DNA from: a virus
Strand: one strand, 5' to 3'
IMG/VR virus record: IMGVR_UViG_3300036791_000873
Coordinates: 1-40,920 of that record
Length of the DNA stretch: 40,920 nucleotides
A program made the position numbers and the translations under genes. The notes under the pieces were generated by a model that made no database searches, was not told the DNA's origin, and saw nothing but the letters and a program-made list of their open reading frames with translations. Below are positions 24,795 to 27,779 of the stretch, piece after piece (within the stretch, counting starts at the first letter, position 1; every line of letters begins with the position of its first letter).

Positions 24795-24866
24795 GGCGGT
24801 ACACATTCCAATTAGCCGTGGAGGGCTAAATGAAAAACCTGTCTGGACAGGTAGGCGTGTACCGCC
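24795..24866 (+). promoter_or_regulatory. Folded RNA leader of HNH gene 1
   Basis: A perfect 10-bp stem (GGCGGTACAC, 24795-24804, with GTGTACCGCC, 24857-24866) closes a junction holding hairpin 1 (AGCC-GTGGAG-GGCT, 24814-24827, ribosome binding site in the loop) and hairpin 2 (CCTGTC-TG-GACAGG, 24838-24851). ATG 24830 lies between the two hairpins. The same architecture precedes the HNH gene at 32666. It should limit translation. Confidence 0.7.
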
Positions 24867-25531
24867 GTCCTGATACTAACAACTCTTTGCTGGCCCTTTC
24901 GATACATCCACCAATCCCCGTAGGGGAGCAATTTGGCAAATGGGTTGTGCTTGAAAATGATTGGTATAGAGGTTCCCCAAAATACACTGACCGCGCCTGT
25001 CTGGTTCGCTGTCAGTGCGCGACTGAAAGTGTTGTGACCTATCGCGCTCTCCGCAATGAAATAAGTTCTTCCTGCCTTAAGTGCAGGCCGATACCCAAGC
25101 GAAGCGTAGATACGGTCTGGAAATGCCTGTTCAACATCTACAAACAGCGCGGAAGAGTGATGGACAGGAAGATGCATCTCACGCTCCCCCAAGTAAAATT
25201 TGTGTCGCAAATGCCTTGTGCTTATTGCGGAAAAGAGCCATCGAACCTTTTTCGACGGAAGTACAAGGCTGATGATGGCAAGCATGGCTACGGGCCTGAG
25301 ATGGAAATTCGCTATTCCGGCATTGATCGGGTGGACGCAACGAAAGGCTATATCCACGGCAATGTTGTTCCGTGCTGCTGGGAATGTAACAAGATAAAAA
25401 GTGCCTTAACCCTCGATGAGTTTTTGGGGTTGATTGAGCGGATTCGTCAGCACAATCCCACGGCTGACGGAATCCGCTCAATGGCTGCGGCGATGTTCGA
25501 TCAAGAGACCGTCGAAACAGCGTCGATGTAA
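24830..25531 (+). CDS. HNH homing-type endonuclease 1
   Basis: A 233-residue free-standing HNH nuclease. The N-terminal part (GEQFGKWVVLEND ... LVRCQC ... SSSCLKC) is a zinc-bound accessory module common in phage HNH proteins. The nuclease core has CAYC (130-133), GIDRVDATKGY (164-174), N178 and CWECN (183-187), the usual beta-beta-alpha-metal layout with zinc knuckles. It lies on the strand opposite to the late genes, 48 bp past exon 2 of the intron-split capsid gene, and has a folded leader. It probably cleaves a target in related genomes to spread itself and perhaps the intron. ATG is preceded by GGAG. Confidence 0.9.
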   Translation: MKNLSGQVGVYRRPDTNNSLLALSIHPPIPVGEQFGKWVVLENDWYRGSPKYTDRACLVRCQCATESVVTYRALRNEISSSCLKCRPIPKRSVDTVWKCLFNIYKQRGRVMDRKMHLTLPQVKFVSQMPCAYCGKEPSNLFRRKYKADDGKHGYGPEMEIRYSGIDRVDATKGYIHGNVVPCCWECNKIKSALTLDEFLGLIERIRQHNPTADGIRSMAAAMFDQETVETASM

Positions 25532-25579
25532 CGCATCCGCATCGTGGTGTCCGGGGGCAAAGTTGCGGTATACATGCAA

Positions 25580-26902
25580 TTATATGAAGCAAAACCCGAT
25601 CAATGTTGCGGGTAAATCGTTTCCATTTACCCTCTTGCTGTCGCCAGCAAGGCCAGACTATCTTTTCATCCACATGGGATGCTCCGCGCTTCGGTCCCAC
25701 TTGGGACCTACTCCCTTTCGGGATAGTCGTTGCACCTTCCGATTGCTCGGCTTGGCTCAGGATTGTCTGCATGAGAGTTTCCCTGAATTCACGGAGTTTT
25801 TCGATATCCATTACTGGATAAAGCGGCAGTTTTGTTTACCGATCATTCTGCTGGGGTCATAGCCGCTCGGCTCGGTCAAGCGGCGAACCCAGATACTCAG
25901 ATTGCGATAATTTCCATCACCTATCTGGGTATTTTCCTTGGCTCCGAAGCTGATGCCGATTACTCCGTCCTTGCCCATGAGGTAGGTTCGGAGTCCGGTC
26001 TGTGTGGTTCCGCTATAGTTAGCCGTTTGCTTGACGAATGTGGATTGGAAGAATGTTGCTCCCGCCCAGTCAATTACCGTTACGGCATCGCCATCCGGGG
26101 CCGGAAGCTCCTTCAGCCGCTCGTTGCCTTCAGCCGTCCGCTTTACCACATCCACCAGTGAGTTGTTGGCCGTGTCTACCAGCACATCGCCCACCGTGAA
26201 GGGATGGATGATGCCGAAGTAGCGCCCATCCTCGAAGGGCAGGGCATTGACTCCCTGCAAACTCTGGACGGCGGTAGTAATATCCGTTGTCTTTACCGTG
26301 GCTGCACCAACCTTCGAGAGATGGCCTACCAGCGCGTCGACGGCGTTGGCTCCGTCCGCTGTGTTCTGGATGATGATGTTGATGAGCTGCGCCAGACGAT
26401 AGGCCATCTGCTCCCCAAGGGCTTCGAGCGCGGGGTCAATCGCGGTCTGGAGCGCGTAGGTCGAGATGTTCATATAGTCGGCGTAGTTCCCGATGGTGCT
26501 GGTGTTCTGCGACACCGTAACCGTAAGGCCAGTCTGGATCGTGCCTTCCGGGGCCTGGGTGATGGGCGGGGCGGGAAGATTCTGGTACATGAACAGGACG
26601 AGCTTGTTACCGCTGTTCTCGTCTAGCTGCCGGCGTGACGTGCATCTAACCCACGGCGTATTTCCCTTGAGATTTTCGACAAATACTTTGTCGAACTGGG
26701 TGACAACGCTTTGCGGGAGATTGCTTGTAAGGTTCGACGCCGGGGATACTCCAGCACCCAGCACAAAGGCGTGTGTTCTGCCCACTCCGCCCAGATACGC
26801 CCATGAGCTTGCGCCCAACGCGCAAACCAGCTCGATAAGCGGGACAATGACATACTCGAAAAACTTCCTGCCGCACGTAGCGGCGCGACTATCGTTTCGC
26901 AT
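25580..26902 (-). CDS. Major capsid protein (N4-gp56-like), split by a group I intron
   Basis: Joined exons 26902-25838 and 25594-25580 give 359 residues. Conserved blocks of N4-gp56 family capsid proteins are present: NLPQSVVTQFDKVFVENLKG (61-80), GNYADYMNISTYALQTAIDP (138-157), and a YFGIIHPF segment in the middle. It follows a scaffold-like gene. The intron (25837-25595) sits between codons; splicing joins ...SRMIG to FCFI and a TAA at 25582-25580. Unspliced message would read nine other codons (KQNCRFIQ and stop). ATG 26902 has GAGGGGG upstream; residues 14-41 are oddly hydrophobic for this family, so the true start is not certain. Confidence 0.8.
25595..25837 (-). ncRNA. Group I intron (IA-like), 243 nt
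   Basis: Minus-strand core elements: P3 CTCCGTG (25796-25790) with CGCGGAG (25688-25682); P4 TTCAGG with CCTGAG, inside the classic ATTCAGGGAAAC and CAATCCTGAGCCAAGC boxes; P6 CCGA-GCAA-TCGG; P7 GACTATC (25728-25722) with GATAGTC (25662-25656); P7.1 CCC-GAAA-GGG and P7.2 GGTCCC-AAGT-GGGACC; P8 CATCC/GGATG; P9 CTTGCTG-GCGA-CAGCAAG; P9.1 GGGTAAAT/ATTTACCC. P1 pairs exon CGGU with GCCG (U-G at the 5' site); P10 pairs CAAAA with exon UUUUG. The last intron base is G. No ORF inside. Confidence 0.9.
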
Positions 26903-26918
26903 GGCTTCCCCCTCGAAG

Positions 26919-27779
26919 TCACGCGCCCATTGCATCGACCTGCCTGCGGAAGTCTGGGTCTGCACGAAGTTTTTCGTTAAACTCAGCTCGGCTCATCTTC
27001 TCAATGTCAGCGCGTGTGTACTGCTTTTTCCGGGCCGGGGCCGGGGCCGATGCGCTGGCGTCCGATTGCCTGAGTCCGGTTGATACGCTGCGAGGTCGCG
27101 GAGAGGGAGCTGCGGGAGCTGTTGTCTGTCCACTCGCGGATTCACTACCGTTGATATAAACGGGTTGTGTTCTGCGGTGCTGTGCAGGGATTGGTTCCTG
27201 CGGTATCTGTTCCTGCGAGTCGTCTGGCCAGGGGATCAGAGTGTCCCGATCCTGAAGGGTTTCAAACGCCAGCGCAAGGTTGTTTCGTGTCAAGTCCCAC
27301 CCGTTGGCCTTCAGTTCCTCGAAGATTTGGTCTCGGTTCTGGGGTACGGGGTAATACTCTGGAGTCGCTTCGATGAAGGCTCTGGCCTCGCGGTCATAGT
27401 AGGCGTCCTGCTCGGCCTTACTCATGCGCGCAAACTCGGCTCCAATCTTGTTGGGGGAGAGGCCCGTCCTGCGGGTCACAATCTCTTCGACGGTCTCAAC
27501 CACGCGCTCCGGGTCGCGCATATCCTCCGCGTAGCGCAAGCGGTCTGCCGGCGTTATTTCCTGTGTTCTGACGGTGAGCGGGGCCTTGGCGGAGTCGGGT
27601 TTGCGGAGCCGGCTTATCTCGCGGTTCGCATTGACTTGCGAATCGGCCAGCTTATCCGCCACTTCATCCATCGTCTTGCCTTTGAAAGTGGACACGCGCG
27701 CGCCCTGGGCGTTCTTGATAACGAGAACGTAATCGCCGTTTTCGTCGGGCTGCTTGTCGTTTTGCCATTCTTTGAACAT
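26919..27779 (-). CDS. Scaffold-like protein
   Basis: A 286-residue charged helical protein directly upstream of the capsid gene, the usual place for a scaffold. The N-terminus (DYVLVIKNAQGARVSTFKG) forms a small beta hairpin; the middle is helical; residues 190-255 are Pro/Ser/Ala-rich and probably disordered; the C-terminal helix is basic (YTRADIEKMSRAEFNEKLRA), a typical capsid-binding feature of scaffolds. No protease motif is seen. Confidence 0.6.
   Translation of the reverse strand: MFKEWQNDKQPDENGDYVLVIKNAQGARVSTFKGKTMDEVADKLADSQVNANREISRLRKPDSAKAPLTVRTQEITPADRLRYAEDMRDPERVVETVEEIVTRRTGLSPNKIGAEFARMSKAEQDAYYDREARAFIEATPEYYPVPQNRDQIFEELKANGWDLTRNNLALAFETLQDRDTLIPWPDDSQEQIPQEPIPAQHRRTQPVYINGSESASGQTTAPAAPSPRPRSVSTGLRQSDASASAPAPARKKQYTRADIEKMSRAEFNEKLRADPDFRRQVDAMGA

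Follow-up and report, generated by a model that had tools for sequence, protein, structure and literature searches.

A compact ORF-less group I intron near the 3' end of a major capsid gene in soil-phage DNA, next to a free-standing homing-endonuclease-like gene

The DNA analysed here (the window, 40.9 kb in its whole length) is soil-phage DNA from an IMG/VR virus contig. By profile matching, the product of one of its genes was identified as a major head protein (phrog_1357, E=6e-11), which upholds the initial annotation in its placement of an intron in the major capsid gene; genes matching portal (SU10-type) and terminase profiles lie upstream. The capsid gene is read from the minus strand and consists of two exons. 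Exon 1 (25838-26902) begins at the ATG at 26902 or at an in-frame alternative and ends in ...MIG (ATG ATC GGT), while exon 2 (25501-25596) encodes GFASYNCMYTATLPPDTTMRMRYIDAVSTVS followed by a stop codon, in agreement with the C-termini of intronless relatives. Between them lies an ORF-less group I intron of 241 nt (25597-25837, minus strand), delineated by the RF00028 match, empty-site comparison and covariation, with the base at 25597 as its terminal guanosine (omega-G). A free-standing, convergent HNH/Endo VII-like homing-endonuclease-like gene (HEG; 24830-25531, plus strand) overlaps the capsid stop with its 3' end, and its start codon is spanned by a conserved three-way-junction element of 72 nt (24795-24866, plus strand). 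An additional ORF (25179-25811, minus strand), which runs across the intron, exon 2 and the antisense strand of the HEG, was rejected as spurious.

Capsid relatives were collected from IMG/VR in two scans, the first of which yielded 38 sequences and the second 80 loci. The alignment of the relatives begins at a conserved GVSPASNLT region, upstream of which the first ~45 residues of the capsid protein are situated; the candidate start codons (window 26779-26965) are GTG at 26965 and ATG at 26902 or later. Since the nearest isolate capsid (42.5% identical) is that of Tunturiibacter phage Tunturi_3, an acidobacterial host seems plausible on sequence grounds. A scan of genome contigs with the capsid found no prophage and no host, and the capsid had no match in a profile search of the PDB. 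The AlphaFold2 model of the intronless homologue L001, based on a 14-row alignment, reached a pLDDT of 34, at which the C-terminal tail is not placeable.

The initial annotation had described a group I intron with all of its core helices and named RF00028 as the model to search with. In the cmscan search this family was matched at 25634-25847 (minus strand) with 73 bits (gathering score, 50; E=8e-17), the model being covered completely (1-253), and it was the sole RNA family found in the window. Helices P2-P9.1 are all present according to the helix map and the fold, and the catalytic core, which in the Rfam alignment and the helix map extends from the 5' strand of P7 (25724-25728) to its 3' strand (25656-25660), encloses P7.1, P7.2, P3' and P8 (25656-25728, minus strand). 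The intron folds with a z of -4.1, none of 200 shuffled sequences folding as well; the corresponding value for the intron of a related contig, L029, is -5.2. Of the 24 columns in which these two introns differ, all 11 that fall in helices retain pairing, and five pairs, located in P7.2, P9 and P9.1, are fully compensatory. When a third intron, from L026, was added, 97% of the cells of the alignment (three sequences only) were paired, and double changes were seen in 23 of 62 pairs, compared with 1-4 for slid control structures; P7 is invariant in all three. This also makes it very improbable that the intron has decayed, no longer splices and truncates the capsid protein: the core helices are all intact, the changes with respect to L029 are compensatory, and exon 2, as described below, is under purifying selection.

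The 5' splice site was confirmed by pairing analysis to be as initially annotated, with a P1 formed by CGGU of the 5' exon (25838-25841) and GCCG of the internal guide sequence (25824-25827), including a U.G pair at the site itself. The 3' boundary required correction. Intronless relatives read ...SRMIG-GFASYN.MYTATLPPDPV.R.RYIDA.S..-stop, i.e. nearly all have 31 residues after MIG. Translation from the three possible terminal positions gave RMIG-GFASYNCMYTATLPPDTTMRMRYIDAVSTVS-stop for G25597, loss of the reading frame for 25596, and RMIG-FCFI-stop for G25595. The last of these had been proposed originally, together with an intron of 243 nt (25595-25837) situated five codons from the end of the gene; its FCFI terminus disagrees with the intronless relatives, and its P10 has a two-base offset and five contiguous pairs. 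With omega-G at 25597, and only then, P10 comprises seven contiguous pairs abutting P1, formed by CAAAACU of the intron (25828-25834) and GGUUUUG of exon 2 (25590-25596). Most of the CAAAA/UUUUG pairing previously recognised is thus retained in a longer helix, and the intron does end in a G, albeit two nucleotides from where it had been placed. In addition, the UC just before the terminal G pairs with the GG just 3' of P7 to give a P9.0, which forms for G25597 only; L029 has CC at the equivalent position. The four wobble bases that make P1 and P10 (ATC GGT/GGT TTT, the slash marking the junction) do not occur all together in any of 61 distinct intronless relatives, the product of their frequencies being 4e-4.

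Because both the C-terminal motif of the relatives and the seven-pair P10 fit G25597 only, the intron is taken to span 25597-25837 (241 nt), with U25838 as the last base of exon 1 and G25597 as the last base of the intron, and it is followed by the last 31 codons of the gene and the stop codon. The alignment with intronless relatives has therefore supported the intron itself and moved its 3' boundary by two bases. The spliced junction is predicted to read ...ATCGGT/GGTTTTGCT, and splicing would restore a complete capsid protein with the 31-residue C-terminus of the family. Taken together, the covariance-model match, the P1 with its U.G pair, the terminal G, P10, P9.0, the covariation of the helices and the precise restoration of the host gene, as seen in the spliced C-terminus aligned with intronless relatives, characterise the element, as far as its sequence tells, as a genuine compact ORF-less group I intron of the IA-like type (P7.1 and P7.2). 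It shares with the IA-like introns of T4, Twort and SPO1 the P1-P9.1 core, the U.G at the 5' site, omega-G, P10 and P9.0. Such an intron would be expected to self-splice from the late capsid mRNA with the use of exogenous guanosine.

In the unspliced message the reading frame continues for eight codons into the intron and ends, after KQNCRFIQ, at an in-frame TAA (25811-25813, minus strand; ORF 25811-26965). It had been proposed that unspliced message still yields a nearly full capsid protein, and that incomplete splicing could fix the proportion of two capsid forms that differ at the C-terminus. The unspliced product, however, is devoid of the 31-residue tail, in which seven residues (G315, Y319, N320, P329, R334, R336 and D339) are conserved without exception in an alignment of 14 relatives (identities down to 49%), and none of the relatives in the comparison of C-termini ends in the unspliced residues. 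The FCFI terminus assumed for the other form is the product of the mis-set splice site. Moreover, close relatives lack the intron entirely, hence it is dispensable. Considering the loss of a conserved tail, the absence of relatives ending in this manner and the dispensability of the intron, isoform control is rejected and the existence of two functional forms is regarded as hardly credible, even though the unspliced ORF stays in frame past exon 1. Comparison of exon 2 with that of L001 revealed differences at 36 of 96 nucleotides but at only 4 of 31 amino acids (27 of 31 identical), with 20 synonymous codon changes. The pattern clearly indicates purifying selection at the level of the sequence, as would be the case if spliced mRNA were the source of essentially all functional capsid protein. 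The synonymous divergence of exon 2 (~73% of shared codons) is raised in comparison with that between relatives (roughly 50%), which hints at a co-converted tract; given the shortness of exon 2 and the lower divergence in L174, this hint was not relied on. Splicing could also be imagined to regulate capsid production, with guanosine level or temperature determining its timing. This is improbable: the capsid mRNA is late and very abundant, but nothing more specific speaks for such regulation, and the intron is dispensable in close relatives. We regard the intron, within the boundaries given above, as a selfish passenger rather than an isoform switch, with a joint probability of about 85%. As the annotated capsid ORF would here end in KQNCRFIQ, automated annotation will truncate capsids in such phages.

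The HEG encodes a product of 233 aa, which by profile match (phrog_1035, endonuclease VII, 2e-15; phrog_3118, HNH, 4e-8) is a phage HNH/Endo VII-like homing endonuclease in the broad sense; no Pfam match was found. It carries CxxC, N178 and a further CxxC, and the motif D-R-V-D is present in all four capsid-linked homologues aligned. The DHHRN motif of F-CphI and Endo VII (CxxC...DH(D/x)H...R...N...CxxC) is thus altered by an Arg at the position of the first His. As this His is reported to be conserved in all members of the DHHRN family, the gene product was not filed among them, although its sequence suggests that it works like these enzymes. The 72-nt element at the start of the gene consists of GGCGGTACAC ... 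GTGTACCGCC arms and two inner hairpins, in one of which a Shine-Dalgarno-like GGAGG sits. Its DNA is almost identical in L174, L177 and L188, although the identity of the HEG proteins is no higher than about 50-63%. It is absent from L221, was not found in HEG-less relatives and corresponds to no Rfam family, and a scan of genome contigs with a pattern of the HEG element found none. Possibly the element serves translational control or forms a part of a mobile unit.

The end of the capsid gene was readable in 82 contigs, counted over both scans of relatives, and five of them have the HEG at the capsid 3' end: the window, L221 (the L026 contig), L177, L188 and L174 (the L040 contig). In the four other phages the homologues occupy the same convergent place, and in L177, L188 and L174/L040 they adjoin an intronless capsid gene. 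Two of these three are intact; the third (L040, 3001-3686) is split by a frameshift and looks like a decaying free-standing HEG. Further relatives of the HEG were noticed in two phages with intronless capsids (L164, 1432-2322; L165, 1342-2106), where they occupy the other strand immediately 3' of an adjacent ORF that by eye resembles TerL, suggesting that this gene family tracks the ends of late genes.

Introns near the capsid 3' end were found in two of the five HEG carriers (the window and L026/L221) and in none of the 77 HEG-less contigs (Fisher p = 0.003, kinship ignored, the association resting on two cases of an intron with a HEG). A distance of 10 bp separates the two insertion sites (GGT/GGT in the window, GCTT/CA in L026). 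The intron of L026 resembles that of the window only distantly, so two distinct introns have inserted close to one site. The presence of a free-standing HEG beside an ORF-less intron corresponds, by analogy, to the arrangement known from collaborative homing (PMC6083498, PMC3984707). As the intron has no endonuclease of its own, the neighbouring convergent gene would be the most likely source of its mobility at the DNA level. The endonuclease would be expected to cleave capsid alleles devoid of the intron, close to the conserved codons for MIGGFASYN, and repair would then copy the HEG, the last ~100 bp of the capsid gene and the intron together. We consider the odds of such homing to be about even. 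Against it speaks the Arg of DRVD, where Endo VII-type enzymes carry a catalytic His, and the three HEG carriers with intronless capsids imply either that the enzyme does not cut the intron site or that those alleles resist.

An intron of the window type was found in one further contig only. That of L029 is 92% identical and is inserted in the middle of the gene, after STIG, downstream of the same 5' exon AUCGGU; in the few relatives available this site reads ATCGGC or ATCGGA. No HEG was found in this 35-kb contig. The occurrence of a near-identical intron elsewhere in the gene of such a relative suggests that the intron may also be able to jump to new sites that match its guide sequence. Guide-directed reverse splicing would be the simplest reading of this copy; the evidence is circumstantial, as it is for other introns (PMC3984707). 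The same copy, together with the HEGs adjoining the intronless capsids of L174, L177 and L188 and with the common AUCGGU, is also consistent with an intron that is immobile at the DNA level and spreads by rare reverse splicing only, the HEG being unrelated and homing into the gap between the capsid gene and orf163. This is a possible but less likely course of events, considering that both 3'-end introns reside in HEG carriers (2/5 vs 0/77) at sites just 10 bp from each other. Collaborative homing with occasional ectopic insertion, both of which are known mechanisms, would account for the distribution as a whole.

Capsid introns are already known, and the present one adds a member in an informative setting. 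In the case of mycobacteriophage LittleE, splicing of a capsid intron was proven by RT-PCR and N-terminal protein sequencing (PMC3706429). As in the window, the host is a tailed phage, the interrupted gene is that of the major capsid protein, and an endonuclease is encoded on the other strand. The LittleE intron, however, is ~819 bp long and contains its endonuclease gene (PMC3706429), whereas that of the window is 241 nt long and has the endonuclease gene outside. A close parallel in layout is the psbA intron of S-PM2 with F-CphI and T3-type collaborative homing (PMC6083498, PMC3984707, PMC10448857), where an ORF-less intron is likewise accompanied by a free-standing Endo VII-like/HNH gene beside the host gene. 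Unlike F-CphI, the HEG of the window carries DRVD where the DH pair would stand, is convergent and overlaps the capsid stop, and its cleavage activity is putative. ICP1 and other HEG islands situated near capsid and terminase genes resemble the locus in that HEGs are clustered by essential late genes and some are paired with introns, but the nucleases surveyed there belong to other families (T5orf172, IPA-HNH; PMC10448857). Few natural cases illustrate the way in which a mobile intron arises from an ORF-less intron and a free-standing endonuclease. Close relatives of the window display separate states at a single locus, and the gene concerned is the most abundantly expressed of the phage; the locus offers a useful natural series for the study of this association.

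Capsid genes had been considered less usual hosts of group I introns. Isolate-phage introns that are about 70-77% identical to that of the window over much of the core do lie, among the matches listed, mostly in DNA polymerase, terminase, helicase and tail genes, in contrast to the ORF-less 241-nt intron of the window in its major capsid protein (MCP) gene. A host-blind pattern derived from the intron core, however, matched at least 119 IMG/VR stretches, which crude dereplication reduced to 84 loci, and RF00028 confirmed introns in all 14 loci sampled. In 25 of the 84, among the matches listed, the exons cluster with representative MCPs from eight other PHROG groups. MCP is thereby the commonest host class identified among these matches, which makes the supposed rarity of capsid hosts doubtful; 47 loci are without a host class, and the bias may stem in part from the origin of the pattern in capsid introns. 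Tentatively, MCP genes may be a preferred refuge of this intron lineage across unrelated capsid families (the eight further PHROG groups among the matches listed), and the capsid end of the window a mobile island, composed of the HEG, its structured 5' element and different introns 10 bp apart, that is caught at every stage: empty, with the HEG alone, with HEG and intron, and with the intron alone elsewhere. The introns of this core type in other MCP groups are within L042-L160 (e.g. L047, L109, L146, L152 and L154), and L109, L146 and L149 contain two or three introns each. In one phage contig (L100, 865-932, minus strand) an int-alpA RNA (RF02996) is located near a capsid-gene intron.
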